From Buxus sempervirens (taxonomy: Eukaryota; Streptophyta; Magnoliopsida; Buxales; Buxaceae), in the NCBI GenBank assembly GCA_947561395.2, contig OX387194.1, forward strand, positions 19,082,048-19,146,047: 64,000 nt of DNA. The letters are read 5' to 3'. A program made the position numbers and the translations under genes. Under the pieces are notes generated by a model that did no database searches, was not told the origin of the DNA, and was given only the letters and a program-made list of their open reading frames with translations. Positions 22,319 through 45,350 of this stretch are shown piece after piece. Numbering within the stretch: the stretch's first letter is position 1; each line of letters opens with the position of its first letter.

Positions 22319-24594
22319 TGTGAGACATGGGAAAAAAAATCACCGGAGTGATCGTCCCTCCGTCAACACACGGGCTCAACGCAAAAGTGGGAGAGTCGCC
22401 ACCATTCATGATTTTGGGGTGAGAATGGACACCAAAGAGTTCAAAAGTAGGCAAAAATAGCCAAAAGACAAATTCTAGGATAAAAATAACCCTACTTGAA
22501 AATCAAATCCAGAGATGGGTAAGGGGATTAGATTATGAACGGGGGAAGGTGTTAGGCACCCCCATTCATCCACACGAAGTGGTTGCCAAGTGTATGTTCA
22601 TGCAAAAAATAAAGTAAGAAAGCTTGCTAAAAATCATAGAAAACCTTGAAAAAGGATTAATGTATGATATTTTCACATGAAGATCTAAATGGATTTTAGA
22701 TCCTCTCTTATGTCAATATCATTTCTGGAATATCTCAAAAGATGGAAATCAAAGCACAAATTGCTCAAAACCAAGTTAAATCAAATTCGGAAAATTTGGT
22801 AAAAAGTATACCATTTGCCTTGAAATCATTCAAATCCGATTCTAAATTGACCCAAACCAAATCCATTTGAAAGATTAGGGTAAACAAGAGTCTCATGCAA
22901 AATTTCACTTCATTCCGATGAAAAATCTAGGAGTTATGCTCCTTTGAAGTTGCTGTTGGGGATTTTTAAAAGTAGTAAGTGGGCAACTTTGGAAAATTGT
23001 CTAGAAAAATCCACTACATAGAAATCCACGAAATTTGGTGTGATTGAAGTCTGTATGGCCATCTTTCAATAGAAACTAGCCTCATATAAAAATCCCTTCG
23101 GGTGTGCCTTGGGTGGTCTCCCGAACAGGCCCCGAAGATCACAGATTTACCCAGAAAAATGCAAATGAGCAGTTCTGAGTAAATCGGCTACCAATAATTC
23201 AAATGGAATCCAAAAATTATGAAACCAACTGGATTTGAAAATAGACTCAAAAAGGAGTACTCAGAAATAAAAATCGCTTGAATCGGACTTAAAACGAACA
23301 CATGGCGGTCCGTCGAAGTGACAAGTTCTGTATTTGAACCTGAACTGTCCACTCAACTTCGACAGAGAGGTGTCAAAAATCGGCTAGATGAAAATTCATG
23401 AAATTTGGTGGACATAAACTAGACAGACTCACCTTTCCCATGGTTCTGGAATCACCCCAAAATTCATCCGGATGATGAAGTTACGGGCGTCCGAAGTAAG
23501 GGTACAGGTGCTGTCAAGCTAAGCCATTTTTTGAGTAAAACCAAGTCCGAAAATTGATAAAAATGAAATTCGTGCAAGATGAACACAAATACTTTAAAAT
23601 CATCCGAAAGGCATTCCAGAATTGATTGAGGTCATTTATTTGAGATTTATCACAATAAATGCAATAAACCCCAAATATGAGCCTATCCCGCCAAAATAGT
23701 GATATGTGTGCAAAAGTGAAAAAAACCTAGCAAGATCCATACACATGCATATAGATTCAATAAAATAGGTTCTAGCATAGCCTAGGGTTCCGTTCCATTA
23801 TCGTTTCCCTCTGTTCTCTTTAAGATAATCAAGGGTACTTTGAATATGGAACGGTTTACAATTAATCAAAAAGGCCTTATGCTACACAGGTTCTAGCACT
23901 AGGGTCAATCCCCAGTCTCGTTTCTCCTAGATCCGCCTTCACGTTTTACGGCTAGGGGAGTCTTGAGATACTTTGAGCCGGGGAAGGATTTCCACACATA
24001 CAAACAAGGCTTTACACTACAGAAAGGTAGAAGAAGAGATCTAGATCTAGGAATGTAAAGACAGAAAATAAAAAGAAAAGTTGAGGCTTACCTGAGTTCT
24101 GGAGGCGATTCCACAGCGGTTTTCTTCTTCTCTTGGAGTTCTTCTTTGCGAGAATTCAAAACAAGAGTTGTGTGCCATTTGCTCAAGGAGGAGGCTCCTA
24201 TTTATAGGCAAGGGCTAAGGTCATTGGTAGACACAACTTAATGTCTAGAACCCCTCCAACCTAAACCCTAAGGTTATTTCCGCGATTTCCCCTCATTTAA
24301 TGAGGGACATGATGGTAAAAGTGAAAAGCTCTCGGAAAACCCTAATTTTGAGCAAACTTAAGGTATCCGGTACATCAGACCGGATAACAAAGGGCCTTAA
24401 GGTATCCGGTACATGGTACCGGATACGCCAAGGCTCACACGTATCCGGTATGAGTATCCGGATACGGGAAAGAGTACTTGTATCCGGATTGAGTATCCGG
24501 ATACAGGTAAAAGTATATTTTCTTCAAATTCTGTGCTGGCTTTCCAGGAGATAATGATTTTTGATGATTGTTTGTGCAATTTGGGGTGTCTACA
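22319..24594 (-). repeat. 3' LTR of the big Tat element
   Basis: 2,276 bp, plus-strand ends TGTGAGACATGG...GGTGTCTACA. Same length as the other LTR, and no mismatch was found when the two were read side by side. TATA box on the minus strand at 24199-24206. Palindrome array at 24363-24504. Confidence 0.97.
24363..24504. promoter_or_regulatory. Palindrome array of the 3' LTR (four units)
   Basis: Units at 24363-24387, 24402-24426, 24441-24465 and 24480-24504. Each has 8-bp arms GTATCCGG and CCGGATAC around a 9-bp spacer; only the outer arm of the first unit is imperfect. In the sense direction the array is about 160-300 bp upstream of the TATA box. Confidence 0.95.
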
Positions 24595-24610
24595 ACTGCC
24601 CCTCTTTGCG
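24595..24610 (-). other. Polypurine tract next to the 3' LTR
   Basis: On the minus strand, a GCAAAGAGGGGCAGT run directly precedes the LTR start TGTAGACACC. This is the expected place of the plus-strand primer. Confidence 0.8.
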
Positions 24611-24766
24611 GGAGCTGCGAAGCAGTGAGCTGCAAAGAGTAGACAAGCCCAAATTGCATTCCCTTGAGCATGATTTGCTCGGTTTAATTCAATTTCTGTA
24701 GAAAACCATTTTTGAGTGGAGATTTGCCAAAAGGCCCTCACTTTAAGGGGGCATCTCTCCAAGAGT

Positions 24767-24985
24767 TCTTAAATTCCACTGAGCCCTTTGTGGCTGTGAA
24801 GTGGATTTTAAGCCCAAAAATAGGATTTTTGAAAAACTGATTTTTTATCAAACCAAGTTGAAAAATTGAGTGGATATCATCCTTTTGACCAGGCACATTT
24901 CCCAAGGTTGTCCTAAATTCCACAGAGCTCTCGTGGCTGTGAGGTGGATTTCAAGACAAAAATAGGATTTTGAGAGAAAATAGAA
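24767..24985. repeat. Direct duplication of about 140 bp next to the 3' LTR
   Basis: Two diverged copies of a segment with the words TAAATTCCACwGAGC, GTGGCTGTGAxGTGGATTT and AAAAATAGGATTTT, starting at about 24767 and 24911. Confidence 0.75.
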
Positions 24986-24992
24986 GTTGTAG

Positions 24993-25216: not shown

Positions 25217-25217
25217 A

Positions 25218-25281
25218 GTATCCGGTAAGTATATCCGGATAATAAAGGGTCTGCGGGTATCCGGCCTGAGTATCCGGATCC
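25218..25281. promoter_or_regulatory. Two palindrome units upstream of the PMD gene
   Basis: Two 25-bp units, 25218-25242 and 25257-25281, of the form GTATCCGG-N9-CCGGAT, the same palindrome as in the LTR. They lie about 1.2 kb before the ATG of the PMD gene. An untranslated first exon and a 5' intron (donor near 25553, acceptor TGTAG at 26516) probably fill the gap. No clear TATA box was found between. Confidence 0.75.
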
Positions 25282-26516
25282 CGCATGTTTACTTAAGTCG
25301 CGCGCGACCGCGACTTTTCATTTCTTTTCTTCATTTTCCGACAACTCCGACCGGCCACAGACCTTCGTCCCCGACTGTCACGATTCGCCCTGCTTCTCCG
25401 GCGATCTCCAGCAACTCCGGCGACTCCTATTGCTGCCGGCGACGACCTGCAACTCCGGCGACTTCAGTGATCGGCCATTGATAGCTGCAATCGAGCCCTA
25501 GCTCGATTTCCTCCCATTTTCGGGGGTTCTCTCTAAGCTCCAGCAATCCCAGGTTATTCTTTTACTTCCTTATTAATCAAACAGTGGTAGCTTGGCATTT
25601 TTAATCGAATCATGCTCCTGTTTAGCTCAAGCACCGAATGGCCACTTATTTTCTAACTTTTCTGCCGAAAATTTCTTTCTTGTATGCCAAAATTTTCCTG
25701 TCGAATGGTCATGCTCAGATTGAATAGCCCTTTTGTTTCCAACTTCAGACAGTTGAGTTCGAGTATGGTTTGATGAATTTTTGCTCCTCAAATCCTGCAT
25801 GATTTCCAGCATTTTTGCCATATACTATGCCGAATTGCCATGTTTGTGATGCTTTGGTACCTTGATTGACATTTGGCCTGACCATATGCTGTCAATTGGT
25901 TATTTTTGTTTGCTTGAGGGGACCAACTTTGATCATCTCATCGGCTGCAAGCCTCTTGGTCTAAAAAATTGTCTTTGAAGTACGCCCAAATTGACAGTGA
26001 CCAAGTAGCCTGGGCTTGATGCCAGACTGAATTGCTTATTGTAAATGCCATGCTGTGCTTTTCTACAATTTGCTTTGTATGCCAACTCTTGCTGTCTTTA
26101 GATTGCCTGCCAATGGTTATACCATGCTACAAAAGTTTGACTTGAACCCTGATTTGCATGCTGGTGGTAATCTGCCACTTGCATATTTTCTATCTTCAGT
26201 ATGGCCTGGGTTAAAAAGCTTCTGCTCCCTTTCCCTTTTGCTGTGAATTTTCCTTAATTGACTGTCCAATCTGGATTTCTGTAATTCTGCTTGCCTTTGA
26301 TACCTGAGCCTTCCCTCTTATCATATCCTGGAAACACAATATACAGGAAATGTTAAGTACTGTAGGAATCTTTTAGGAAATGTTTCCGGATTAGCAACAG
26401 AAGTATTTCTCACTTCCCAGTAAAATTCATAATTCACAATAATTTTGAAAAATAATCATGTAAAATTGGATGTGAACTGCGAGCAAAGCCAATTTATAAA
26501 ACACTTCCCTGTGTAG

Positions 26517-29207
26517 ATGGCTAGGAGTCGTTCCCGAGTTAGGGAGGAGGTTGACCCGGCTGATCAGCCCTCCAGTTCGCGGGCTCGGACAGAGGCGAGC
26601 TCCAGTGCTACCTTGTCTGAGCCATTGGATGTCTCCAGGGAGAGCTCTGCTGAGGTAGACTTTCAAGAATTTTTCTTTCTTTTCTTTCTTCTATTCTCCT
26701 TTCCCACACAATCTTCACACTGCCCTTGGATTTTAGCCCGTGGTTGCACCCGCTCGGGGTCGAGGCAGAGGCAGAGGCAGAGTCCAGGATCAGGCCCCTG
26801 AGGGCGAGAGAGGCCGTGGTAGAGGCCGAGGCAGAGCCAGAGATATGGCTCCGGAGGGGGTTGCTGTAGCTTTGGCAGGGGTCTCTGAGGAGTTGAGGGC
26901 TTCTGTGCATGATACAGAGCTCCTCCGTGGCTTGGATAGCCACCCCTCCATGTGCATCAGGGCCGATGTGCCGCTTCCCTACTATTCTTCCCACTTGCGC
27001 GGCAGCTGGGGGAGATTCAGCGAGTTGGCACGGTCACTTTCTCCGGCACTCAGGCGGGAGTTTGGGAGGTGCCATCTGGATCATTTCCTCAGTATTCCAT
27101 CATTCAGAGCCGACCGTCCACTCATTTTTGCCATGATGGAGAGATACTTCCCAGAGACACAGTCGTTCCACCTGCCGGACGTGGAGCTGGGGATCCGCCC
27201 CTCCGATTTTGTGATGATTACTGGCATTCCTCTGACGGGGCGGACCATCGTCTTGGAGCGGCCTTCTGCGGAGGATATGGGACTTCTCCTGGGGTATCAG
27301 GCCCTGCCTCCTACTGCTTGGGATGGGCGGAGTGGCCGGCTCTCCATTAGTTGGTTGCGGGAGAGTCTGGCTCGACATTTTGAGGGGAGGCACAGGACTG
27401 TGGCTGTGGATGATGCTGCATTTATTCCTATCTTCCGGCACGTATTCCTGCTGATGCTTGGGAGCTGCTTTTTCCCGGAGGATACGACCGGCGTCAGCCC
27501 ACTTTTCCTGGACGCTTTGAGAGATCTCCATCAGACCCGCCAGCTAGCATGGGGTCGGCTCATTTATGGGACCATCTTGGCCGGGCTGTGCCGAGCGGTT
27601 CGAGGCTTAGCATCTCCGAGAGGTGATGGAGTTAGCAGCCGGTTCTTCTGGCAGATTCTACAGGTATTGCATTCATCTGTCTGGCTTAATTCTTTAGGCT
27701 TTTATCCTTTCCTGACTGATTATTCTTTTGCTAGGTGTTCATGTACACCTATATGACCTTTTTCCGCCCCTCCCCGGTTCCTGAGGTTGCGGATTTCCCT
27801 GTGGCCCTGCGATGGTCGGCCCAGGTTCGAGATGCCGATAGGAGCCAGCCTCGTACCGCTCGGGTGCACTTAGACCGTGCACGCCGATCTGATGTAAGTC
27901 CTCTATCTTTTTTCTTTTATTTTCTTTCCTGTACCTTGACTGTATCTGACCACTTCGCTTCTTTGCAGCTCATTCTATCCCGTCCAGATGACGTGGATGT
28001 CGGAGTCGCCCGTGAGATGGCAGTACAGGATGCTTTTGAGCGAGATCTCCGACGTCAGTCTTACCAGTGCTTCCTTGGGAGGCTTGGTAGGGTGATGTAC
28101 TTGGGAGAGCGCCTGTACTACCAGCACACTGGCGCACTTCGCATCCCCGTCCCTCCTCCTGCTGTGGGTCCCGACACACTCCTCCCGGGCTTTGATGTTG
28201 ATCAGTTCGATCACTTCTTGGATGCGGAGGGGCTTACAGTAGCTGGAGATTATGACGATTGGTTCCAGCGGGTGTCTATTGGATGCTTGATGGATCGACC
28301 CACTCGTGCTGGGGTGACTGAGATTGGCGGGATCCGTATCCGGATCCATGAGGACACGGTAAGTCTTGTATTCTTCCCATTTTTATCCTCTTTTCCTTCC
28401 TTATGCCTTTTTGACCATGCTTCCGTTCTTGCTGGCAGGTACACGAGCTGAACTCCATTCGGGACCGGTTCGAGAGCCAGCGGGCTGCGATCGATGATAT
28501 GATCGCGGAGCACGATGCGGTCGTGGCTCAGCGGGATGCCCGGATCAGGGAGCTGGAGGCCTTGGTTGCTGAGCTCCAGGCTAGACAGGTATCTGGCCTT
28601 CTCATATGTTCATTTCTTTCATTATTTTCTGTTTCTGCTATTCTGATATGCTTGTTTGACTTGTGCAGGGCCCGGTCCATGATCAGGATGCCTTCTTTGA
28701 GCATGATTTCCTGATTCCTGACCCATCTCCTGCTCGGGCCTCTGATCCCGAGGATGTCCCAGCTGCTGATCCTGACGAGCCGGATCCTCCTGCTCCTTCT
28801 GCAGACATTCCTGGTATGATCTTCTTTTTATCCTCTTCTTTTATTCTTCCTTATATCTGAATCTTCTGATTTTTCTCTTTTCTGTGGACTCAGCTACTTC
28901 TGATCCTGGCCCCTCTGCTGCTGATGCTGGGCCTTCTGGAGCTACGGGAGCAGAGGATGCTTTGGATGAGGGCCCAGTTGGGCCGGTTGCTGCTGAGCCC
29001 GAGGCTTCTTCCCCCGATTCTACTCCTGCTCCTCCCCCAGATCTCGAGGATTATTGCTTGGAGTATCATCTTCAGCAGGTGGTAGGTCGGCATCCTCGCC
29101 ATGCGGCCGAGCGGATTCTTGCATACTCTAGAGGCCGAGCCCTTTGGGGGAGACGCCGTAGAGGTGGACGCGGCCGAGGACGCGGGGATGATCCTGCACA
29201 GGAGTAG
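26517..29207 (+). CDS. Plant mobile domain (PMD) protein carried antisense in the Tat element
   Basis: Seven exons with GT-AG borders: 26517-26654, 26737-27663, 27735-27893, 27969-28358, 28439-28588, 28669-28813 and 28894-29207. Introns are 71-82 bp, phase 0 except the last (phase 1). They give one 740-residue frame with ATG directly after a TGTAG acceptor of a probable 5'-UTR intron. Residues 1-120: Ser/Arg-rich, then Arg-Gly repeats (RGRGRGRGR). About 125-385: PMD-type fold with RYFPETQSFHLPDVELGIRPSDFVMITGIPLTGR, like the F-H-x-E/D-x-T-x-D-V-x-x-x-x-G-L-P-x-x-G signature. Exon 5 (539-588): coiled coil with ARIRELEALVAELQ. Then a Pro/Asp/Ala-rich linker and an Arg-Gly tail (GRRRRGGRGRGRG). 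Host PMD proteins (MAIN, MAIL1) are nuclear factors tied to silencing and genome stability; the role here is unknown. It is opposite to gag-pol, so genomic RNA would not lose its introns. Confidence 0.8.
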
Positions 29208-29412: not shown

Positions 29413-29553
29413 GTATCCGGTCTGACATACCGGATACATTGATTGGTCTTTGTATCCGGTATGTCATACCGGATATTCATGGGATCCTTCGTATCCGGTA
29501 TACTTATCCGGATATTACCAAAGCCTTTGTATCCGGTCTGAGTTACCGGATAT
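29413..29553. promoter_or_regulatory. Palindrome array upstream of the DUF7745-like gene (four units)
   Basis: Units at 29413-29437, 29452-29476, 29491-29515 and 29529-29553, all GTATCCGG-N9-CCGGATAy. A TATA box (CTATAAATG, 29566-29573) begins 12 bp after the last unit and the ATG is at 29684. This is the clearest promoter-like arrangement on the plus strand. Confidence 0.85.
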
Positions 29554-29683: not shown

Positions 29684-31395
29684 ATGGAATCCGGATCATC
29701 TTCTGCCCCATTATTGTCTGTCCACACTGCCTCCCCTGCAAAACAGCCTTTTAGATCAAAACCCCCAAATCTCACTAGGTACAACCCTGTGGATTCCTTT
29801 TACACAAGGTGGGTTAACTCTATGACCCTAGATGAGGAGAGGAGATGGGGTACTACCAACCTAGGCCATACCCTGCTCATTCCCAAGGTTCCCTTCAAGT
29901 GGGAGATTATAGAGGCCATGATTGGTCATTGGGTTCCTGATCTCAACTTGTTCCGTTTTGGGACCCATGAGATGACCCCAACCATTGAGGAGGTGGAAAC
30001 CATCCTGGGCCTGAGGTTTGATGAGAAGGTGGTGAATCCACCTCTTAGGCCCAGTTACAAGAAGGAAGCTTCTACTTTTTTGGGCATAGGGAAGAAGGAC
30101 TTGGGGGATTCTGACACCCTTTTGACCCTATCTAAGGCTTTTTTGACTGAGAAGCTTTTGAGGGGAGAAGATAAGGAGGCCCGATTCAACGCGTTGACCT
30201 TGATTGTGGTCAACCAATTACTTTTCCCACGGGAGGATGACGAGGTGGACTTGGCCTTGATTTCCGTGATATGCCAGGTTCGGGAGAGGGAGAGGTTGGC
30301 CCCTATGATTTTAGCAGGGATGTATCAGGCCTTGACCGACTGCTACAACAGGAAGTCGAAACGCTTCTTAGCATGTGCCCAGATCCTGCAGGTAAACAAG
30401 TTTTTTTTTTCTTTCTTTTTCTCTTTTTCTTTTTTCTTGCTTTTTGGCCTTCTTTTTGCCTTTTTTTTTTTTTTTTTTTTTGTACAATGTGCTGACACCT
30501 CTCTCTTCCTTTGCAGCTTTGGCTACTTGATCATTTGAGCCAGATTGAAGAGATCAATCGACACTTCTTCCCGAGTCTGAAAGTCCCTTTGTTGATGAGC
30601 AACAGGGGGTGCCCCGATATTTCAGGGGGCAAACAGGGCTGGTTCACCTTCTTGGGCTCGCTTCAGGATGACCAGGTGAGATGGCCTGGTACTTATCAGC
30701 CCAATGCGGAGACAGTGATTAGCTTCCGTGACCGCAACTTTCTGATCCTAGCAGGCCTAAAGCATGCAGTGCTTTATCTTCCTCTGCGGGTCCTTCGTCA
30801 GTTCCGAGCGACCCAGGGGATTATCATCCCATATGGATACGAGGATCGTCTTGGGCCTCTTTCTATGAAGCTGAATGCCTGGTTGATGAAGGAGTGGTCT
30901 TATGTCCGCTTTATGCATGGTCCTGTCTTCTCGGAAACCCATGTGAAGGATTATCTCTTCTGGATCAAGGAACAGATACAGACTCAGGCCCCAGTACCCG
31001 AAGATCCTCCTGTAGTCTTGGCTCCCATCTATGAGGACATTCTAGAGTCTGAGCGGGCTCCTCATAAGCGGCTTCAGCAGATATGGGTACGGGAGGCCCA
31101 GGAGCTCAGGATACAGGGCGCTTATCTGGAGAGGCAGCTTGAGGAGCAGGTCTCACGCCGTATTGCCGTGGAAGAGAAGCTGGAGGAGCAGAGGCAGGCC
31201 CGTTGCTTCGAGGTCCGTATGATCCGGCAGAAGTACCAGGATACTTTGGCCAGCCTTAGGAGTATGAGGATCCAGCAGGCCCTTTTAGATGAGGTCATTT
31301 CCTTCCTGAGTGATCCTGCTGCAGAGGGGGCTTCAGGAGTCATTGCAGCTCAGGCAGCTCGGATTCGGGAGCTTGAGGAGCGGCTAGGAGATTAG
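29684..31395 (+). CDS. DUF7745/PMD-related protein carried antisense in the Tat element
   Basis: Two exons, 29684-30391 and 30517-31395, with a 125-bp intron (CAG|GTAAAC ... TTGCAG|C) rich in T, phase 0. The product is 528 residues. ATG 29684 is chosen as the first ATG after the TATA box at 29566; the open frame reaches further up without an ATG. Residues about 60-140 hold PFKWEIIEAMIGHWVP..LFRFGTHEMTPTIEEVETILGL, the pattern of the plant DUF7745/PMD-like proteins (tryptophan/phenylalanine followed by E-x-T-P-T-x-E-E). The middle is globular and unassigned. Residues about 410-528 form a strong coiled coil that ends ARIRELEERLGD, echoing ARIRELEALVAELQ of the neighbouring PMD gene, so the two may be distant duplicates. 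No known function. It converges with pol, leaving about 940 bp between their ends. Confidence 0.75.
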
Positions 31396-32337: not shown

Positions 32338-35300
32338 TCAAGGAAAATACCTTTTTACCGCATCAGAGTTAATGGGCTCAGGAAAATCTGACCCATCCAT
32401 TTCTGCTAAGATGAGTGCACCCCCTGACAGGACTTTCTTGACGACATATGGGCCTCCCCAATTGGGCTTGAACTTACCACGAGGGTCTTCCAAAAATGGT
32501 AGAATTTTCTTTAGCACTAAGTTTCCTTCTTGGAAAGTTCTGGGCCTCACTTTCTTATTGTAAGCCCGGGCCATTCTCTTCTGGTACAACTGTCCATGGC
32601 AAAGCGCTTTTAACCGCTTTTCTTCTATCAGGTTAAGTTGATCATGTCTCGACTGGACCCATTCGGCTTCTTCTAATTCTGCTTCCATGAGCACTCGGAG
32701 TGATGGGATCTCTACTTCCACGGGCAAGACTGCTTCCATCCCATAGACTAGGGAGTATGGGGTTGCCCCAGTTGAAGTCCGGATCGAGGTTCTGTATGCA
32801 TGCAGAGCAAGTGGCAGCATTTCATGCCAATCCTTGTAGCTCACTACCATCTTCTGAATGATTTTCTTTATGTTTTTGTTTGCTGCTTCTACTGCCCCAT
32901 TCATCTTTGGCCTGTACGGAGCTGACTTATGGTGGGTGATCTGAAACTGCTCACACATTTTCTTCATGTCCTTGTTCTTAATATTTGAAGCATTGTCTGA
33001 TACTATGGCACTTGGCAGTCCATAGCGACAAATAATGTTGTGCTTCAAAAATTTAATAACATGGTTGCTAGTGATGTTTGCATATGAGGCTGCTTCCACC
33101 CACTTAGTGAAATAGTCAATCGCCACCAGGATGAATCTGTGCCCGTTCGATGCCTTAGGTGAGATCATGCCAATGACATCTATGCCCCACATAGAGAAGG
33201 GCCAGGGTGATGTCATGTTGTGTAGCTCACCTGGGGGTGCATGCTTATTATCTGCATATATCTGACATTGGTGGCACCTCCTGACATGTACACAGCAATC
33301 ATGCTCCATGGTTGTCCAGTAGTATCCCAGCCTCAGGATCTTCTTAGCCAGCATGTGCCCACTCATATGGGGCCCACAGACTCCTCCATGTACAGTCTCA
33401 ATCAGCCTTTCCGATTCAGCCTTGGCAACACATCTTAGCAGAATGTCGTTATGTGACCTCTTGTACACATGTCCACCACTTAGTAGAAATTGACCAGCCA
33501 ATCTCTGTATTGTCCTCTTCTCAGTAGCAGTGGCATTTTCTGGCAGACTCCGATTGTTCAAGAAATTTTTGATATCTTGAAACCACGGTGCTTCTTCTTC
33601 TGGTGCTCCCTCTAGAACGAGACAGTAAGCCGGTTCATCTCTAACCTCAATTTCCAGCGGTCTGATGTCTACTCCTTCTGGTATGCTGACCATTGAAGCC
33701 AAGGTGGCTAGAGCGTCTGCAAATTGATTCTTGGCCCTTGGCATATAGTTGAAGGAAATTCGAGTGAAATTTGTGCTTATTTCTTCCAAATACTGGTGAT
33801 AGGGGATCAATTTGTGATCCTTGGTTTTCCACTCACCAGTTGTTTGGAAGATGATAAGACTCGAATCCCCGTATACGTCAAGTTCCTCTACTCCATGATC
33901 CATGGCCGCTTGCAATCCAATTATGCATGCCTCATATTCTGCTATGTTATTGGTACACTGGAATCTCAGCTTTACTGCAATCGGGATGTGTGAACCATCT
34001 GGTTTGACCAAGACTGCCCCTATTCCGTTCCCATTCATGTTGGCCGCCCCATCGAAGAACATCTGCCAAGAACTCTCACTGTCCTCCTCTTCAGTGTACA
34101 GGATTGCCTCATCTGGGAAGTTGGTCTTCAAGGGTTGATATTCTGGCAGAGGATGTGCAGCCAGGTGATCAGCTATGGCTTGACCCTTGATCGCCTTCTG
34201 GGTGATGTATGTGAGGTCAAACTCGGACAATAGTAGTTGCCACTTTGCCGTCCTGCCAGTCAGTGCCGGTTTCTCAAATAAATACTTCAGCGGGTCCATC
34301 CGGGATATCAATAGTGTGGAGTGACTAAGGAAATAATGCCTTAGCCTCTGAGTGGCCCACACTAGAGCACAGCAAGTCTTTTCCAATGGTGAGTATTTAG
34401 CTTCATATTCTGTGAATTTTTTACTCAGATAGTAAATTGCCCTTTCTTTTCTACCAGTCTCATCATGTTGCCCCAAGACACATCCCATCGACGTTTCCAA
34501 CACTGACAAGTACAGGATCAGCGGTCTTCCTGGAGTTGGTGGCACTAGTACCGGTGGGTTCAGCAAATACCTCTTTATGGTGTCAAATGCCTGCTGGCAG
34601 TCCTCATTCCAGACCGTAGGGTTATCTTTCCTTAGAAGTTTGAAAATTGGTTCACAGATAGCAGTGAGCTGTGCTATGAACCGGCTTATGTATTGAATCC
34701 TTCCAAGAAAGCCCCTGACCTCCCTCTCAGTTCTGGGTGCTGGCATTTCAATTATGGCCTTGGCTTTAGCCGGGTCAATTTCAATTCCTCTTCGGCTCAC
34801 TATAAACCCCAGCAACTTTCCTGATGTAGCCCCAAAGACGCACTTAGCCGGGTTAAGCCGTAGACTGTACTTCCTGAGCCGATCAAACACTTTCTTCAGA
34901 TTGATCAAGTGGTCTTCTTCTTTGCAGGATTTGGCAATCATATCGTCTACGTAGACCTCCATCTCCTTGTGGATCATGTCATGAAATAGTGCAGTCATGG
35001 CCCGCTGGTATGTGGCCCCAGCGTTCTTAAGTCCGAATGGCATGACCGTGTAGTGGAATGTGCCCCAAGGTGTGATAAATGCTGTTTTTTCTTGATCCTC
35101 CTTAGCCATCTTGATCTGATTATATCCCGAGAACCCATCCATGAAGGAAAACAGGCTATGTACCGCAGTATTATCGACCAGAATGTCGATGTGTGGAAGC
35201 GGAAAATCGTCCTTTGGGCTTGCCCTGTTCAAGTCTCTATAATCCACGCACATTCGGACCTTCCCGTCCTTCTTCGGTACCGGCACTATGTTCGCGAGCC

Positions 35301-35925
35301 ACTCCGGGTACGTAGAGACTGCCAGAAATCCAGCTTGGAACTGCTTTACCACTTCGTCCTTGACCTTCAGAGTCCATTCAGGCTTCAATCTTCTCAGCTT
35401 CTGCTTAATCGGCTTAACCCCTGGCAAAATTGGTAACTTATGCACCACCATGTCAGTGTCCAACCCCGGCATGTCCCGATACGACCAAGCAAACACATCC
35501 TTGTAATCTGCCAAGAATTGTGACATTTCATTTTTCTGCACATCAGACAAGCATGACCCGATTTTTACAATTTTTGGGTCATCTTTGGTCCCAAGATTTA
35601 TGGATATGGTCTCCTCAATATTAGGTTGGACCCCCTTTTCATGACGTTCCAATTGGTATTCAATTTCTTTTGGAACGTCTTCTTCTTCGACCTCGGTCTC
35701 TTCTTCGACCCCCATGAGATCAAAGTCGAGCTCAAGGTCGAAGTCATATTCAACCTGGTCCAATTCGGTCTGATTATATGGCTCATAAGTGGTTTGGACC
35801 TTTTTGAAAAAATTAAATTTCCTAGAAAAAATAGAAAAATCTTTTTGGGTTTTTTGTGGGCCTTCTAAACATAATTCCCCTGAAGACGAAGGCCCATTAG
35901 AACCTTCAGGGAAATGGCATTCCAC
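32338..35925 (-). CDS. pol: pol of the Tat element (RT, RNase H, aRNase H, integrase)
   Basis: Open frame of 1,195 codons. Rough order: spacer with Asp/Glu-rich stretch (1-100); reverse transcriptase (about 210-400, VPKKDGKVRMCVDYRDLN, MPFGLKNAGATYQ, YVDDMIAK); tether and RNase H-like connection (about 440-600); archaeal-type RNase H (about 650-780, MFFDGAANMNGNGIGAVL ... EYEA ... YGDSSL); integrase zinc finger (HHCC, HGGVCGPHMSGH...CHQCQ, about 845-890); and integrase core (GIDVIG..., SDNAS..., ending VEAANKNIKK, about 920-1020). There is no chromodomain at the end. The second RNase H is a hallmark of the Tat group. The frame abuts the gag-protease frame; Ogre relatives are known to use splicing between the two. 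It looks whole. Confidence 0.93.
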   Translation of the reverse strand: MECHFPEGSNGPSSSGELCLEGPQKTQKDFSIFSRKFNFFKKVQTTYEPYNQTELDQVEYDFDLELDFDLMGVEEETEVEEEDVPKEIEYQLERHEKGVQPNIEETISINLGTKDDPKIVKIGSCLSDVQKNEMSQFLADYKDVFAWSYRDMPGLDTDMVVHKLPILPGVKPIKQKLRRLKPEWTLKVKDEVVKQFQAGFLAVSTYPEWLANIVPVPKKDGKVRMCVDYRDLNRASPKDDFPLPHIDILVDNTAVHSLFSFMDGFSGYNQIKMAKEDQEKTAFITPWGTFHYTVMPFGLKNAGATYQRAMTALFHDMIHKEMEVYVDDMIAKSCKEEDHLINLKKVFDRLRKYSLRLNPAKCVFGATSGKLLGFIVSRRGIEIDPAKAKAIIEMPAPRTEREVRGFLGRIQYISRFIAQLTAICEPIFKLLRKDNPTVWNEDCQQAFDTIKRYLLNPPVLVPPTPGRPLILYLSVLETSMGCVLGQHDETGRKERAIYYLSKKFTEYEAKYSPLEKTCCALVWATQRLRHYFLSHSTLLISRMDPLKYLFEKPALTGRTAKWQLLLSEFDLTYITQKAIKGQAIADHLAAHPLPEYQPLKTNFPDEAILYTEEEDSESSWQMFFDGAANMNGNGIGAVLVKPDGSHIPIAVKLRFQCTNNIAEYEACIIGLQAAMDHGVEELDVYGDSSLIIFQTTGEWKTKDHKLIPYHQYLEEISTNFTRISFNYMPRAKNQFADALATLASMVSIPEGVDIRPLEIEVRDEPAYCLVLEGAPEEEAPWFQDIKNFLNNRSLPENATATEKRTIQRLAGQFLLSGGHVYKRSHNDILLRCVAKAESERLIETVHGGVCGPHMSGHMLAKKILRLGYYWTTMEHDCCVHVRRCHQCQIYADNKHAPPGELHNMTSPWPFSMWGIDVIGMISPKASNGHRFILVAIDYFTKWVEAASYANITSNHVIKFLKHNIICRYGLPSAIVSDNASNIKNKDMKKMCEQFQITHHKSAPYRPKMNGAVEAANKNIKKIIQKMVVSYKDWHEMLPLALHAYRTSIRTSTGATPYSLVYGMEAVLPVEVEIPSLRVLMEAELEEAEWVQSRHDQLNLIEEKRLKALCHGQLYQKRMARAYNKKVRPRTFQEGNLVLKKILPFLEDPRGKFKPNWGGPYVVKKVLSGGALILAEMDGSDFPEPINSDAVKRYFP

Positions 35926-38900
35926 TATTGGAGTTTTTTTTTGGAAGCCGCGTCAGTTTGCCGAACTAACGCTGCTTCAAAGGTAAGGGGAGTTTCCTCC
36001 CAATTGTTTAGTACAAAATTTTGGGGAGCAGGGGAAATAGGGAAAGCCCGCTCCTCAAGCCCAGCATCCGATGCCATCATCACCGGGTGGGTACTGCCCT
36101 TTTCTGCTACGGGGCTCAGTCTAGAAGTGACCTCCTCTGGAATCTTCACTGCAGCCCAGTCAATAAATGGCAGTTCCATGTCTACCCCTGTCTTTTCGCC
36201 TTCAGTCATGGCGAAGAATGCACCAACATCTTCAGAAAAGTCCACCTGCTGCTCGGGCTGTGGTCCAGGCCCATCCACTGCTCCCAGTATTGGAGATGGG
36301 TTATAGGGTTGTAGGGCCGAAACAGAAGGCTTTTGAAATGGGTTGACATTGTAGTAGGGAGGTTTGGATTGGTCCATAGGAGGAGAAATTTGGATTATGT
36401 AAGCGGGTTTTGGGAAGTTCACCCTCAGATGTGGGAGTTTTCCTTTGCTTCTGCTCTCCCCTTCTTCATGCTTCATTCTCCTCCAACCTCTGGGCTTGAA
36501 GCCCAACCCTACCTTGAGGATCAGTTTCTTAGCCGTGATTGGCTCCACCATCCCCTGCAGATTGATCCCCAGGCCTTTCCCTGGGTGAAAGCGGTATTTC
36601 TCCATCACTTTCTTGACCATCTTTTCTGCAGTGGTCCCTTTTCCTTTCTTTTTCTCACACCCCCCAGGTATGTAATTTACCGCCTCAAATTGAAATGAGT
36701 GGAATGCAATCTTGTCGACAGTCAAGTCCACATTGATTAATGGTACATCAGGTGACACAATGGGCGGCACCAAGTTTTCGGCTAGGACTGTTATCACCCT
36801 TTGCCCTCTTATGTATTTCACCCTCTGGTGGAGCGTGGATGGTATTGCCCTAGCCGAATGTATCCACGGCCTTCCTAGGAGTAGATTAAATGCTGCGGGT
36901 ATATCCATCACCTCAAATGTGATGTTAAAGATATTCGGCCCAATTGTGACCGGCAGTTCAATCTCCCCTAGGGAGTGGGTCTTGGAGCTATCAAAAGCCC
37001 TTACTATCCGCCCATTTTGCTTGATCCTTGACTGGTCCAGACCCAGCTTGGTAAAAGTGATTAACGGGCAAACGTTTAACGCTGACCCGTTGTCGATTAA
37101 AACCCGTGCAACCATGCAGCCCTTACAAAGCACAGTGATGTGCAAAGGGTCCACATGATAACACCCACCTGGGCTGATCTCACCCTCTGAGAAACTTATC
37201 ACATTATGTGACAAGATTTGACCAACCATTTTACCAAGCTGGTCTGGATCAATTGTCTGGGATACGTGTGCACTCTGTAGCACCCTTAACAATGCATCCC
37301 TATGCTTTTCGGAATTCAGCAAAAGGCCCAGTATTGAAATCTGGGCCGGGACCTTGTTCAGCTGATCCACAAGATTGAATTCACTTTTCTTGATTATTTT
37401 TATGAGGTCGGCTGCCTCATTTTCTGCACCCTGGGGGGTGTCTTCTCCCACTTTATTTTTTCCCTTCTGTTTTCTTTTTTCATTTTCATTTTCTATTTTT
37501 TCTTTTTCCACTTCTGTCTCTTTTTCTTTCTCTTCACCCCCTGCACATCTCCCTGACCTCGTCATGAGGTTCACCTCCTCCTGGTTCTGGTTCCTGACCA
37601 TTGGAACCGTAGCCGTGATTCCCTCGCTGTAGTTCCATGGTACAGCGGCCTCTGAATAGGCTAATTTAGGGATGTCAACCACTAGTGGCTGGAGTCTGGA
37701 CCGGGATGTATGGGCCGGTTTAGGGATAGTATGGGCTGGCTGCACATTTACAACCAGGGGTTGAAGTTTGGATTTGGTGGGGACAGAAGAAGTGATGGAA
37801 GCAGTAGTGGGGTCAAGATTGATGACCAGTGGAGCCTTAGACGGCTTGGATGGGGAATAAATGGGTGGACTGCAATTGAAGACCAATGGGGGTCTTGCAG
37901 TATTCATCTGGGCCATGAGTGAAGAGACCCGGTTTAGAGAGGAACTTATGTCCTCAGCAGCAAGATTATTATTTTTTTGGGAGACCATGTTAATCTCCTC
38001 CTCTTCCTCCTCTGGGAAAAATCGGACCTGGACTGTGGTCCCCACAGGGGCTATGAGCTGTGATGGGTCAAAGGCCCTTCTGGTGGTGGATATGGCAGTG
38101 ATGGAGTTGGATGGGCCTGCCCCATTGTGGTAAGGCAGAGGATTCTGCCCAATATCATTCCCGGACGGGGCCGGTGCAGCAGTGTTGAACACCAAAGCCT
38201 TCTGGTCCAACAGGTCCTGGACCGCATGCTTCAATACCCAGCAGGTATCTGTAGAATGCCCCGGTGCACCCATGTGGAAGTCACAGGTGACCGACGTGTC
38301 AAAATTTCTCCCCCTGGTGGCATTCGGGTTGGGCTCTTTCAGAGTCAAGTACTCACCCTTCAGCAAGGTTGGCAATAGTTGGGAAAGAGATATTGGTAGA
38401 GGGGTGAAAACCCGGTTCTTTCTTGCTGCGAACCAGGCATCCCGCTCCTCCTTAGAAAAAGTCCTCCTTGTGTTAGCTGGCACAGAGGGAGGGAAGTTGA
38501 CATTCAGCGGGGTCTGGTACGACTGCTGGGCCTGCTGGGCCTGTTGGGGTGCCGAGATGCTCACATGAAGTGGCTTCTTGGCTGGAGGAGCCTGGACCAG
38601 GTTCACCTCCCCTTCTTTTCGGGCCCCCGTCTTTTTAAATCCGGCCCCTTTCTTCTGGGCCATGGAAGCAGAGGAATCAGACTGCCCAGTCAGAGTAGAG
38701 TAGTCTATCAGCCTTCCTGACCTGACCCCTTCCTCGATCCGGTCCGCCACTTGTACCAGGGCTGCAAAGTTGGTGGTGATCTGACCCACCAGATGGTTGT
38801 AGAAGGGCTGCCCCAGTGTGCCCATAAATGTGGAGATCATCTCCGGCTCTTGCATAGGTGGCCTGACCTGGGAGGCGGCCTCTCTCCATCTCTTGGCGTA

Positions 38901-39635
38901 CTGCCGTACCGGTTCATCCTTCCCCTTGGTCATCCTCATCATGTCGTACCGGTCTGGCACGATCTCAGAGTTGAACTTGTACTGGTCCAGGAAAGCATCG
39001 GCCAAGTCCTTCCACCTTCTAATCCTTCCATGGTCCACTGTAGCGAACCACCGAAGGGCTGACCCGGTCAGACTCCTCTGGAAGAGCTGGATCAGTATTC
39101 CATCATCCCGGCCAAATTGGCACAGGGCCCCGCAGTATAGTTTTAGATGGCTTAATGGGCAGCCCGTGCCATCAAACTTGTCAAAATCCGGGCACCTGAA
39201 CTTAGCCGGTAGACAGACGTCCGGGTACATGCACAGGTCCTCGAAGGTGGTGCCTGCATGGCTGCCTCCCCCCTTCACTTCCTTCAGCTCTGCTTGGATC
39301 CTCTCTATCCTCAGCAGCATTTTCTTCTCCATCTCATCTCGGGCCTTTTCTTTCTCCAACTCTTTCTCAGACTCAGCTGTATTTTCCCTGATCAGAATGG
39401 GCTCAGGGACCGGTTCAGAAATGGGCTCAGGCATGGGCTGAACCGGAGGCGGTATGTAGGCCTGAGGTGGTGGTGCCTGATGGGAGGTAGAGGCCTGGTT
39501 TTGGGCTTGGGCCTGTTGGGCCTGCGCCGCCAGTAAGTCCCCCAGCATCTTGGCCAGACCGGCCACTTGCTCCTGCAGTTGAGTGAAGTCCTGAGCGGGG
39601 ACAGTAGCTTGGGCTTGGTTCTCTTCAGGATTCAT
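35925..39635 (-). CDS. gag-pro: gag-protease of the Tat element, with a G-patch-like segment
   Basis: The frame begins with ATG at 39635 (MNPEENQAQ); the open frame reaches to 39749 without an earlier ATG, so an upstream spliced start is possible. A heptad-like N terminus is followed by the retrotransposon gag domain (FDKFDGTGCPLSHLKLYC ... SLTGSALRWFATVD ... WKDLADAFLDQY), a Cys/His segment (CDFHMGAPGHSTDTCWVLKH), a low-complexity linker, and the aspartic protease (VARVLIDNGSALNVCP ... FNLLLGRPWIH). After the protease, at about 36535-36620, lies a G-patch-like stretch (MEKYRFHPGKGLGINLQGM). Gag packages RNA and the protease matures the polyprotein. It looks whole. Next to pol. Confidence 0.92.
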   Translation of the reverse strand: MNPEENQAQATVPAQDFTQLQEQVAGLAKMLGDLLAAQAQQAQAQNQASTSHQAPPPQAYIPPPVQPMPEPISEPVPEPILIRENTAESEKELEKEKARDEMEKKMLLRIERIQAELKEVKGGGSHAGTTFEDLCMYPDVCLPAKFRCPDFDKFDGTGCPLSHLKLYCGALCQFGRDDGILIQLFQRSLTGSALRWFATVDHGRIRRWKDLADAFLDQYKFNSEIVPDRYDMMRMTKGKDEPVRQYAKRWREAASQVRPPMQEPEMISTFMGTLGQPFYNHLVGQITTNFAALVQVADRIEEGVRSGRLIDYSTLTGQSDSSASMAQKKGAGFKKTGARKEGEVNLVQAPPAKKPLHVSISAPQQAQQAQQSYQTPLNVNFPPSVPANTRRTFSKEERDAWFAARKNRVFTPLPISLSQLLPTLLKGEYLTLKEPNPNATRGRNFDTSVTCDFHMGAPGHSTDTCWVLKHAVQDLLDQKALVFNTAAPAPSGNDIGQNPLPYHNGAGPSNSITAISTTRRAFDPSQLIAPVGTTVQVRFFPEEEEEEINMVSQKNNNLAAEDISSSLNRVSSLMAQMNTARPPLVFNCSPPIYSPSKPSKAPLVINLDPTTASITSSVPTKSKLQPLVVNVQPAHTIPKPAHTSRSRLQPLVVDIPKLAYSEAAVPWNYSEGITATVPMVRNQNQEEVNLMTRSGRCAGGEEKEKETEVEKEKIENENEKRKQKGKNKVGEDTPQGAENEAADLIKIIKKSEFNLVDQLNKVPAQISILGLLLNSEKHRDALLRVLQSAHVSQTIDPDQLGKMVGQILSHNVISFSEGEISPGGCYHVDPLHITVLCKGCMVARVLIDNGSALNVCPLITFTKLGLDQSRIKQNGRIVRAFDSSKTHSLGEIELPVTIGPNIFNITFEVMDIPAAFNLLLGRPWIHSARAIPSTLHQRVKYIRGQRVITVLAENLVPPIVSPDVPLINVDLTVDKIAFHSFQFEAVNYIPGGCEKKKGKGTTAEKMVKKVMEKYRFHPGKGLGINLQGMVEPITAKKLILKVGLGFKPRGWRRMKHEEGESRSKGKLPHLRVNFPKPAYIIQISPPMDQSKPPYYNVNPFQKPSVSALQPYNPSPILGAVDGPGPQPEQQVDFSEDVGAFFAMTEGEKTGVDMELPFIDWAAVKIPEEVTSRLSPVAEKGSTHPVMMASDAGLEERAFPISPAPQNFVLNNWEETPLTFEAALVRQTDAASKKKLQ

Positions 39636-39837
39636 GGCTCTTGCTTTGGATCTGGTTACTGGAGCAATGATTGCAAGTGTACCTGGGTTGAATGTACCTG
39701 AGGGAAAAAAATGAATAGAACATGTTAGCTTCCATTTAACTTGAGTCACACCCCTATATATGTAAACCAGTAGGTTAGGTGAACACCAATCCAGATTTTT
39801 TTATTTTTGTTTTTGTTTTTGTTTTTTTTTTTTGTAT

Positions 39838-41128
39838 ATTTTTTTTTTATTTGATTGATAAAAATAACCAACCAAGGTTTTCATGGAATATTCTAGGGCT
39901 TCCAAGGGTCCCAATTTTTTTTTTTTTGATTTGATTGATAAAAATAACCAACCAAGGTTTTCATTTTTTTGATCCGATTGATAAAAATAACCAACCAAAG
40001 GTGTCTTGGACTACTCTATCCAAGTATCCCACAAATGTTTTGATTTGATTGATAAAAATAACCAACCAAAGGTGTCTTGGAATATTCTAGGGCTTCCAAG
40101 TATCCCACAAATGTTTTGATTTGATTGATAAAAATAACCAACCAAAGGTGTCTTGGAATATTCTAGGGCTTCCAAGTATCCCACAAATGTTTTGATTTGA
40201 TTGATAAAAATAACCAACCAAAGGTGTCTTGGACTACTCTATCCAAGTATCCCACAAATGTTTTGATTTGATTGATAAAAATAACCAACCAAAGGTGTCT
40301 TGGAATATTCTAGGGCTTCCAAGTATCCCACAAATGTTTTGATTTGATTGATAAAAATAACCAACCAAAGGTGTCTTGGACTACTCTATCCAAGTATCCC
40401 ACAAATGTTTTGATTTGATTGATAAAAATAACCAACCAAAGGTGTCTTGGACTATTCTAGGGCTTCCAAGTATCCCACAAATGTTTTGATTTGATTGATA
40501 AAAATAACCAACCAAAGGTGTCTTGGACTACTCTATCCAAGTATCCCACAAATGTTTTGATTTGATTGATAAAAATAACCAATCAAAGGTGTCTTGGACT
40601 ATTCTAGGGCTTCCAAGGGTCCCAATTTTTTTGATCTTTTTTATTTTGATTTGATCGATAAAAATAACCAACCAAGGTTTTCATGGAATATTCTAGGGCT
40701 TCCAAGGGTCCCAATTTTTTTGATTTTTTTGATTTTGACTTGATTGATAAAAATAACCAACCAAGGTTTTCATGGAATATGCTAGGGCTTCCAAGGGTCC
40801 CAATTTTTTTGATCTTTTTTATTTTGATTTGATTGATAAAAATAACCAACCAAGGTTTTCATGGAATATTCTAGGGCTTCCAAGGGTCCCAATTTTTTTG
40901 ATTTTTTGATTTTGACTTGATTGATAAAAATAACCAACCAAGGTTTTCATGGAATATTATAGGGCTTCCAAGGGTCCCAATTTTTTTTGATTTTTTGATT
41001 TTGACTTGATTGATAAAAATAACCAACCAAGGTTTTCATGGAATATTCTAGGGCTTCCAAGGGTCCCAATTTTTTTTGATTTTTTGATTTTGACTTGATT
41101 GATAAAAATAACCAACCAAGGTTTTTTT
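39838..41128. repeat. Minisatellite in the leader of the Tat element, 17 units
   Basis: Seventeen copies of GATTGATAAAAATAACCAACC at about 70-90 bp spacing between the gag start and the 5' LTR. Two unit types occur: one with GGTTTTCATGGAATATTC and GGGTCCCAATTTTTTT (both ends of the array), and one with GGTGTCTTGGACTACTC and AGTATCCCACAAATG (middle, about 39980-40600). Units mixing parts of both exist. Minus-strand open frames across it are by-products of unit length. Confidence 0.95.
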
Positions 41129-41421
41129 TTCTTCTTCAAATTTGCTGAATTTTCTCAGTTTTCAAGTTCCAGAGTTTGACTGACACATGTTTGAGTTGAG
41201 TTGGTGTCAAAAAATATGACACCTTGGTTTCCTCTTTGATTTTCAAACTTAGGTTAAATCCTGAAAGAATATTTTATTTTATTCTTTTTTTTTTGTTTTT
41301 CTTTCTGTATTTTGGAACATTTTTTATGCTCTTTTCGGGGTGCCTAAGGATTATCCACAGTGTTTTAGGCATTTTATTCTGAAAATTTGGGCTGAAAAGC
41401 CAATTTGTGCATTTTTTGAAT

Positions 41422-41563
41422 GTATCCGGTATAACATTCCGGATAATAATATGCCTTATTGTATCCGGTTACCATAACCGGATTGACGCATATGCCTTTT
41501 TATCCGGAAATATATACCGGGTATGAACAGGGTTGTTATTAACCGGCCTGAGTTACCGGTTGT
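41422..41563. promoter_or_regulatory. Degenerate palindrome array in the leader (four units)
   Basis: Units at 41422-41446, 41461-41485, 41500-41524 and about 41539-41563. The first is a good GTATCCGG-N9-CCGGATAA; the others have decayed arms (TTATCCGG/CCGGGTAT, TAACCGG/CCGGTTG). Spacers such as CCTGAGTTA match those in the arrays at 25218 and 29413, so all arrays share descent. Confidence 0.8.
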
Positions 41564-43054: not shown

Positions 43055-43072
43055 TCCCCAGCAGAGTCGCCA
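43055..43072 (-). other. Primer-binding site of the big Tat element
   Basis: TGGCGACTCTGCTGGGGA on the minus strand, two bases inside the 5' LTR end. The terminal TGG would pair with the CCA tail of a tRNA. Ogre-type elements are reported to use a tRNA-Arg primer; the exact tRNA cannot be confirmed here. Confidence 0.85.
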
Positions 43073-43074
43073 GT

Positions 43075-45350
43075 TGTGAGACATGGGAAAAAAAATCACC
43101 GGAGTGATCGTCCCTCCGTCAACACACGGGCTCAACGCAAAAGTGGGAGAGTCGCCACCATTCATGATTTTGGGGTGAGAATGGACACCAAAGAGTTCAA
43201 AAGTAGGCAAAAATAGCCAAAAGACAAATTCTAGGATAAAAATAACCCTACTTGAAAATCAAATCCAGAGATGGGTAAGGGGATTAGATTATGAACGGGG
43301 GAAGGTGTTAGGCACCCCCATTCATCCACACGAAGTGGTTGCCAAGTGTATGTTCATGCAAAAAATAAAGTAAGAAAGCTTGCTAAAAATCATAGAAAAC
43401 CTTGAAAAAGGATTAATGTATGATATTTTCACATGAAGATCTAAATGGATTTTAGATCCTCTCTTATGTCAATATCATTTCTGGAATATCTCAAAAGATG
43501 GAAATCAAAGCACAAATTGCTCAAAACCAAGTTAAATCAAATTCGGAAAATTTGGTAAAAAGTATACCATTTGCCTTGAAATCATTCAAATCCGATTCTA
43601 AATTGACCCAAACCAAATCCATTTGAAAGATTAGGGTAAACAAGAGTCTCATGCAAAATTTCACTTCATTCCGATGAAAAATCTAGGAGTTATGCTCCTT
43701 TGAAGTTGCTGTTGGGGATTTTTAAAAGTAGTAAGTGGGCAACTTTGGAAAATTGTCTAGAAAAATCCACTACATAGAAATCCACGAAATTTGGTGTGAT
43801 TGAAGTCTGTATGGCCATCTTTCAATAGAAACTAGCCTCATATAAAAATCCCTTCGGGTGTGCCTTGGGTGGTCTCCCGAACAGGCCCCGAAGATCACAG
43901 ATTTACCCAGAAAAATGCAAATGAGCAGTTCTGAGTAAATCGGCTACCAATAATTCAAATGGAATCCAAAAATTATGAAACCAACTGGATTTGAAAATAG
44001 ACTCAAAAAGGAGTACTCAGAAATAAAAATCGCTTGAATCGGACTTAAAACGAACACATGGCGGTCCGTCGAAGTGACAAGTTCTGTATTTGAACCTGAA
44101 CTGTCCACTCAACTTCGACAGAGAGGTGTCAAAAATCGGCTAGATGAAAATTCATGAAATTTGGTGGACATAAACTAGACAGACTCACCTTTCCCATGGT
44201 TCTGGAATCACCCCAAAATTCATCCGGATGATGAAGTTACGGGCGTCCGAAGTAAGGGTACAGGTGCTGTCAAGCTAAGCCATTTTTTGAGTAAAACCAA
44301 GTCCGAAAATTGATAAAAATGAAATTCGTGCAAGATGAACACAAATACTTTAAAATCATCCGAAAGGCATTCCAGAATTGATTGAGGTCATTTATTTGAG
44401 ATTTATCACAATAAATGCAATAAACCCCAAATATGAGCCTATCCCGCCAAAATAGTGATATGTGTGCAAAAGTGAAAAAAACCTAGCAAGATCCATACAC
44501 ATGCATATAGATTCAATAAAATAGGTTCTAGCATAGCCTAGGGTTCCGTTCCATTATCGTTTCCCTCTGTTCTCTTTAAGATAATCAAGGGTACTTTGAA
44601 TATGGAACGGTTTACAATTAATCAAAAAGGCCTTATGCTACACAGGTTCTAGCACTAGGGTCAATCCCCAGTCTCGTTTCTCCTAGATCCGCCTTCACGT
44701 TTTACGGCTAGGGGAGTCTTGAGATACTTTGAGCCGGGGAAGGATTTCCACACATACAAACAAGGCTTTACACTACAGAAAGGTAGAAGAAGAGATCTAG
44801 ATCTAGGAATGTAAAGACAGAAAATAAAAAGAAAAGTTGAGGCTTACCTGAGTTCTGGAGGCGATTCCACAGCGGTTTTCTTCTTCTCTTGGAGTTCTTC
44901 TTTGCGAGAATTCAAAACAAGAGTTGTGTGCCATTTGCTCAAGGAGGAGGCTCCTATTTATAGGCAAGGGCTAAGGTCATTGGTAGACACAACTTAATGT
45001 CTAGAACCCCTCCAACCTAAACCCTAAGGTTATTTCCGCGATTTCCCCTCATTTAATGAGGGACATGATGGTAAAAGTGAAAAGCTCTCGGAAAACCCTA
45101 ATTTTGAGCAAACTTAAGGTATCCGGTACATCAGACCGGATAACAAAGGGCCTTAAGGTATCCGGTACATGGTACCGGATACGCCAAGGCTCACACGTAT
45201 CCGGTATGAGTATCCGGATACGGGAAAGAGTACTTGTATCCGGATTGAGTATCCGGATACAGGTAAAAGTATATTTTCTTCAAATTCTGTGCTGGCTTTC
45301 CAGGAGATAATGATTTTTGATGATTGTTTGTGCAATTTGGGGTGTCTACA
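43075..45350 (-). repeat. 5' LTR of the big Tat element
   Basis: 2,276 bp, offset 20,756 from the other copy. In the sense direction it starts TGTAGACACCCC. The palindrome array (45119-45260) comes first, then the TATA box CTATAAATAGG at 44955-44962, the GCCGTAAAACGTGAAGG word and a U5 with GTGGCGACTCTCCC. It ends TGTCTCACA. Confidence 0.97.
45119..45260. promoter_or_regulatory. Palindrome array of the 5' LTR (four units)
   Basis: Identical to the array at 24363-24504 and upstream of the TATA box (44955-44962) that would drive the genomic RNA. Confidence 0.95.

Follow-up and report, generated by a model that had tools for sequence, protein, structure and literature searches.

Control circuits in which a mobile element recognises its own sequence are best known from VANDALs, which are DNA transposons, and from complex retroviruses. 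Arabidopsis VANDALs, as described in the available text of PMC5735166, carry short tandem motifs in their non-coding parts that are private to each family, and it has been proposed that these motifs co-evolve with a protein of the element as the arrays turn over. In foamy viruses, a single encoded DNA-binding transactivator, Bel1/Tas, controls both the long terminal repeat (LTR) and an internal promoter (available parts of PMC517496 and PMC4929722). Among plant LTR retrotransposons, Ogre and Retand are marked by an additional RNase H between RNase H and integrase, and the plant mobile domain (PMD) is present in 57% of Ogre elements (PMC6317226), while the antisense TRP28 reading frames of Retand have a proposed regulatory role (PMC11963269); in the sections of these and related papers available to us, the role of the extra, often antisense, Ogre/Retand genes is called open (PMC6317226, PMC7264820), as is the ancestry of the host PMD proteins that act in silencing (PMC5418596). 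The Arabidopsis PMD-C proteins MAIN and MAIL1 are, according to the available text, needed to express target genes that share a promoter motif, DOWN (PMC7156037, PMC9899485). Here we analyse a 64,000-nucleotide stretch of the Buxus sempervirens genome (C21:19082048-19146047 of 676.5 Mb; hereafter the window), in which an element with the domains of an Ogre-like Ty3/gypsy retrotransposon occupies positions 22319-45350, its gag-pol sense on the minus strand. Tandem arrays of one palindrome stand at its LTRs and at the promoters of its two antisense genes, which encode PMD and DUF7745 proteins, and they are, in our judgement, probably best explained by their sequence as operators of a family-specific dimeric regulator.

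Palindromic arrays of family A

The palindrome GTATCCGG-N9-CCGGATAC, which defines family A, occurs ten times in exact form in the window versus none in 100 shuffles, and 22 times when up to three mismatches are allowed in its 16 fixed bases (shuffle mean 0.01). Four units with a period of 39 lie in the U3 region of the 3′ LTR (24363..24504; starts at 24363, 24402, 24441 and 24480), with the TATA box of the LTR (24199-24208, minus strand) about 155 bp downstream, and four in the 5′ LTR (45119..45260; starts at 45119, 45158, 45197 and 45236). Two further units (25218..25281; starts at 25218 and 25257) mark the PMD promoter, where no canonical TATA box was seen and CTTAAG is found at 25292, and another four (29413..29553; starts at 29413, 29452, 29491 and 29529) end 12 bp before the TATAAAT (29566) of the DUF7745 promoter. 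The arrays listed at these places in an earlier note, made from the sequence alone, are thus real, with two corrections. The one in the leader, between the 5′ LTR and gag (41422..41563), is degenerate, its units at 41422, 41461 and 41500 having one, two and three mismatches and the fourth (41539-41563) having both arms jointly changed to AACCGG..CCGGTT, an exact palindrome of the D type (see below) in a family-A element; and a four-unit array at 60803-60944 had been missed, in a solo LTR of the same family (60713..63005, plus strand, opposite in orientation to the element; target site duplication GAAGG). Apart from this one leader unit, the family-A arrays of the window contain no B, C or D motif. 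The D-type leader unit may be kept by other A copies, since some A LTR arrays have a listed D match at a distance of about 3.5 kb. A match at 31220, with three mismatches, is isolated and falls inside an open reading frame.

Genome-wide, the exact A palindrome was found 20,444 times and its reversed-pattern control not once. Whether the motif is confined to the family, a question raised together with the original arrays, was checked on the first-listed places: the motif is not scattered, with 46 of those 50 having a listed neighbour no more than 130 bp away. Of the four single places, two (3425085 and 3457186) are separated by about 15 kb from one LTR array and by about 5 kb from the other, the position at which the window element leads one to expect a DUF7745 promoter. 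For individual copies, the best of 3,251 PMD candidates were scored and 6 kb around the PMD exon was taken in 20 of the 121 scored copies. LTR arrays of three or four units and PMD arrays were present in all 20, and the DUF7745 array in all 18 that showed this promoter (four units in 17, three in one), which is deleted in locus L054 and has no matching sequence in the L042 stretch. Copies lacking arrays at the internal promoters, which by the earlier note would speak against a common regulator, were therefore not encountered in this sample, where the tally was 189 A motifs, two of the variant A2 and none of B, C or D. Because the sampled copies are closely related (the 121 scored copies are at least 95% identical in the PMD exon), such conservation within family A is weak evidence by itself.

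Variation within the LTR and PMD arrays is unevenly distributed. Across 22 aligned U3 copies (with L001 excluded) nucleotide diversity was 0.020 in the arms, 0.177 in the spacers and 0.149 in the linkers, with 0.025-0.032 in the flanking LTR, and in the PMD array (21 copies) it was 0.003 in the arms versus 0.064 in the spacers. The spacer sequence could be ruled out as a part of the motif, being free in the comparison of copies.

Two peculiarities of individual copies are recorded here. At L001 (C1:140546-143570) an LTR shares 92.6% identity with family A along 1,670 bp, up to and through an array of four perfect palindromes whose spacers and linkers are strongly different; past the array the sequence is another one. 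In six of 23 aligned copies the 9-bp spacer reads ATACTCAAT instead of ATTGAGTAT, an inversion in place with the linkers keeping their orientation, and in one copy TACATGGTA is inverted to TACCATGTA; these inversions affect LTR units 4 (24480-24504) and 2 (24402-24426) in copies L036, L040, L044, L049, L050, L053 and L037. They suggest that single units were copied by snap-back or flipped by way of cruciforms.

Other families share a geometry, not a sequence

Related families were sampled through the DUF7745 gene, for which a PF24924 search was made, the 118 best of 5,751 candidates were scored, and 850 bp upstream was taken for 20 of the 118, the arrays there being classified by reading and motif counting. 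The C type of motif, CCCGTA-N7-TACGGG, formed arrays at four of these 20 promoters (L062, L070, L072, L073) and the D type, AACCG-N11-CGGTT, at six (L058, L061, L063, L064, L069, L074), with a decayed A-type array at L071 and an A2-type one (CCGA replacing CCGG) at L067. In the C element, the LTR and the PMD promoter (L075) have four C-type units each, every one with one mismatch of 12 fixed bases and all eight with CCG-N11-CGG intact, and the DUF7745 promoter (L062) has C-type units about 20 bp from its TATA box. In the D element, five exact D units lie in the LTR (L076), two exact and one with a single mismatch at the PMD promoter, and four exact at the DUF7745 promoter (L061). The A motif is absent from the LTR and PMD stretches read in both. 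All three promoters of the C element thus agree with one another, as do those of the D element, and both sets differ from family A.

These comparisons bear on two claims made for the window. Common descent of the arrays fits the spacers, which are related between different family-A arrays, but falls short as a full account, because matching flanks stand at the promoters within an element and different ones from family to family. A common, element-specific regulator becomes likelier, because at corresponding promoters related families have palindromes of their own; its identity rests on the arguments given below.

Every family motif reduces to CCG-N11-CGG with family-specific flanks, the half-sites being GTAT-CCG-G in A, TAT-CCG-A in A2, G.-CCG-TA in C, AA-CCG in D and CCG-AA in B. 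When CCG-Nk-CGG was counted for k from 0 to 30, the count peaked at 11 in every array group except a decayed D-like LTR of the window, and CCG-N11-CGG has 32 sites in nine clusters window-wide (shuffle mean 1.61, maximum 5). Clusters also occur at spacings 24, 36 and 37 (five, two and six clusters), which we attribute mainly to the array period, and one each at 17, 23 and 25. The linkers vary (21-22 bases in A, 10-11 in C, 6-100 in D); the inner 11 bases are constant in number. Genome-wide, AACCG-N11-CGGTT was found 19,195 times (control 1,691), versus 184 at N10 (control 1,467) and 1,428 at N12 (control 1,084), several of the listed N12 sites adjoining D arrays. GCCCGTA-N7-TACGGGC was found 11,266 times and the A2 motif 6,516 times, each with no match to its reversed control, and mixed A/A2 sites numbered 3,432 where 12,005 would be expected under independence, so that the arms change together.

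Other LTRs of the window add to this picture. Family B, assessed in one window LTR alone (from about 3678), has a U3 array at 3753..3881 with a period of about 38 and the motif CGAAAT-N3-ATTTCG, CCG-N11-CGG being intact in two units. A solo LTR designated E (55051-57485; target site duplication CCCAT; ends TGTTAGCACC..GGTGCGCACA) has U3 units at 55613..55825, where a C-type palindrome stands shortly upstream of TATAAATAG, and more units at 56662-56761; despite this C-type palindrome, no alignment was found between it and the C-family stretch L075. It is nested in the older D-like LTR, in which three 28-bp units (54564..54647) resemble AACCG-N11-CGGTT, none exactly, and which, being decayed, has no intact CCG-N11-CGG.

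Gal4-like zinc clusters recognise CGG-N11-CCG, and to our knowledge none occur in plants; such a protein was considered as the reader of the arrays and dropped, the polarity being opposite.

An operator model and its rivals

The arrays would, on this evidence, be operators, that is, tandem DNA sites to which a dimeric protein binds sequence-specifically so as to act simultaneously on the LTR promoter and on the promoters of the two internal genes. That they are the operator of a dimeric protein we regard as very probable from the sequences compared, because palindromic half-sites are held at a fixed spacing while arm length is variable, which speaks for a protein dimer over a hairpin. Encoding of the regulator by the element itself is probable, though less firmly so: LTR and internal promoters of one element have a private flank in common, and a second family has a different one, for which an element-owned regulator is the simplest account, and the PMD and DUF7745 proteins are natural candidates because their genes sit under these promoters. 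With either product as the regulator, the circuit would be autoregulated, LTR and internal genes would respond jointly, and families would separate when regulator and operators change together. We lean slightly towards an activating or anti-silencing rather than a repressing role; arrays so close to the TATA box (12 bp in A, about 20 bp in C) would suit activation, relief of silencing or repression alike.

As to which of the two proteins might set specificity, identity between families is 50.9% (A-C) and 53.0% (A-D) for the PMD exon and 75.9-85.4% for the DUF7745 exon. Because the PMD exon diverges far more, PMD may be the specificity setter rather than DUF7745, which is a guess from sequence divergence. 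A search of a large protein database with the DUF7745 exon gave no match, and no relative in the PDB was found by sequence for one DUF7745 protein. A bolder proposal, which we hold tentatively and at somewhat less than even chances, is that gypsy-encoded PMD/DUF7745 proteins form an unrecognised dimeric DNA-binding class that reads CCG-N11-CGG with evolving flank specificity, so that each family would be a private regulon of thousands of operators and new families would arise by a joint switch of regulator and operator. If true, this would supply the missing function of the antisense genes of Ogre-type elements and of the relatives of host MAIN/MAIL1 that those elements carry.

Repeated sites for host factors are a feature of plant LTRs such as those of Tnt1, Tto1 and ONSEN, and by this pattern the arrays might instead bind a host transcription factor exploited by the elements, the families having diverged by drift in the host paralogue they use and the internal promoters relying on the factor of the LTR. 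Such a factor would account for the CCG-N11-CGG core across families and suits the conserved DUF7745 protein. On the other hand, in the C and D elements read the private flank recurs from the LTR to both internal promoters, which needs several factors, each matched to its family, and why the internal genes should have the operator of the LTR is not obvious if a host factor acts alone; we consider this explanation unlikely, if still a serious one. The palindromes could also work by folding into hairpins or cruciforms, whether as RNA or as single-stranded DNA, or be by-products of reverse transcription. Snap-back may indeed occur, given that spacer loops invert in place in six of 23 copies with the linkers unchanged. 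Single family-A units can fold at −6.6 to −7.7 kcal/mol (DNA parameters), and, because the genomic RNA includes the internal arrays as well as the U3 of the 3′ LTR, a role in RNA is compatible by position. Against this, the D arms are only 5 bp, with single units at −2.9 to −5.2 kcal/mol, and B units reach −2.5 kcal/mol; stem length differs between families whereas the CCG-to-CGG spacing does not, and the arrays stand immediately upstream of the promoter elements of plus-strand genes, all of which makes this explanation very improbable.

Passive homogenisation, by which functionless arrays would have spread between LTR and internal sites through recombination or template switching, draws on the relatedness of spacers across arrays, on the identity of at least 95% among copies in the PMD exon and on the DUF7745 array, where arms and spacers do not contrast. 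The LTR arms, however, are no more variable than the LTR around them, spacers and linkers being several times as variable, and the inner gap of 11 bases is kept between families that have LTRs matching one another in no more than parts of the sequence outside the arrays; we give this account hardly any credence.

Several observations weigh against operators read by an element-encoded dimer. DUF7745 alone is, judged from its sequences, a poor specificity factor, since it is conserved despite differing flanks, and no Pfam DNA-binding domain was found in the four plus-strand reading frames scanned. AlphaFold predictions for the DUF7745 exon, from the single sequence and from a 10-sequence alignment, were uninformative (predicted local distance difference test, pLDDT, 37.7 and 37.8), and the coiled-coil score of the DUF7745 C-terminus was reached by 253 of 500 shuffles and is not significant. 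The DUF7745 array lacks the arm-spacer contrast of the others (0.0233 vs 0.0251 in 18 family-A copies). Agreement of three promoters outside family A comes from one C and one D element; an A2 stretch (L077) proved to be rearranged sequence without arrays, and the stretch at L089, where a second D element was sought, held other DNA. Two of the six D-type promoters (L064, L069) are weak. Shared ancestry of copies can partly lie behind the excess of symmetric A/A2 sites, and in the DUF7745 groups of C and D the opposite polarity, CGG-N11-CCG, is enriched as well (7 and 7), because the 28-bp period leaves about 11 bases between units. Finally, eight of the 20 DUF7745 promoters have no array (L055-L057, L059, L060, L065, L066, L068). 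Translation of four of these eight loci gave proteins 34-40% identical to the family-C protein.

The array-less DUF7745 genes appear as a separate class, divergent in the four proteins compared, and may be host genes or belong to another element.

The element and its likeness to known systems

The element of the window is a young insertion, because its 3′ LTR (22319..24594, minus strand, 2276 bp) and 5′ LTR (43075..45350, minus strand) are identical over 2,276 bp and flanked by the target site duplication GTGCT. A sequence resembling a primer-binding site adjoins the 5′ LTR; no tRNA gene was found in the window. Stop to stop, the minus-strand gag frame (35925..39800; Retrotrans_gag and G-patch by Pfam) and pol frame (32338..35952; reverse transcriptase, RNase H, additional RNase H (RVT_3) and integrase by Pfam) are both open. 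The PMD and DUF7745 genes lie between pol and the 3′ LTR, antisense to gag-pol. The former (26517..29207, plus strand) is a putative model of several exons with ends placed by eye, one exon containing PF10536 within 26737-27756 (Pfam, 4.6e-14); the latter (29684..31395, plus strand) is interrupted by an intron, also placed by eye, and its first exon matches PF24924 (4.8e-18) and PF10536 (2.3e-13). Between the leader array and gag, at 39967-41125, are minisatellites of about 76/71 and 89 bp, and tandem units of about 30 bp with AAACCCTGAGTAGGCC lie outside the element at 13726-13839 and 58738-58817.

By its domains, the element is an Ogre-like Ty3/gypsy retrotransposon: pol has the Ogre/Retand order RVT_1, RNase H, RVT_3, integrase, and PF10536 in both plus-strand genes corresponds to the extra reading frames of the Ogre type. 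The Retand marker TRP28 (PF04195) was not found at E 0.001 among the six reading frames scanned, which do not include every exon. Unlike this element, the Ogre and Retand elements in the available text of PMC6317226 and PMC11963269 have no operator described as common to the LTR and extra-gene promoters, palindromes being absent from the main text of the former and confined to the reference list of the latter. A wider search of titles and the beginnings of abstracts, with most subscription journals outside it, found no description of such palindromic arrays or operators in plant LTR retrotransposons, or of DUF7745; palindromes as insertion targets are treated in the part of PMC6911290 available.

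The dependence of MAIN and MAIL1 on a promoter motif is a likeness from the host side. The form of DOWN given for the MORC1 promoter, CATGCAGTTT, is unlike CCG-N11-CGG, and direct binding of PMD to DOWN is not known there either in the available text. A likeness to the foamy-virus circuit may lie in the motif that LTR and internal promoters have in common here as sequence, and putatively in one encoded protein acting on both, but here the two internal promoters are antisense to gag-pol, the sites are tandem palindromes and the element is of a plant; its extra proteins match PMD/DUF7745 and its structure is that of the plant Ogre type, not of a vertebrate retrovirus with a Tas-type transactivator. 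VANC, the VANDAL protein that the earlier note had proposed as the closest analogy, holds up in so far as the tandem motif here is likewise private to its family in the sample of listed places and fetched loci. Membership does not follow: the element is an LTR retrotransposon with reverse transcriptase and integrase rather than a DNA transposon, and the VANDAL motif YAGTATTAY is arrayed in one orientation, with no palindromes in the main text of PMC5735166, in contrast to the palindrome with fixed inner spacing seen here. As an analogy, then, the likeness to VANC and to foamy-virus Tas is one of function and not of membership. A family-private operator at the LTR and extra-gene promoters would give these genes a concrete, testable function and, for several families, a defined DNA ligand. 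If this reading is right, the self-recognition otherwise familiar from VANDALs and complex retroviruses would extend to a plant LTR retrotransposon with a control circuit of tens of thousands of sites.

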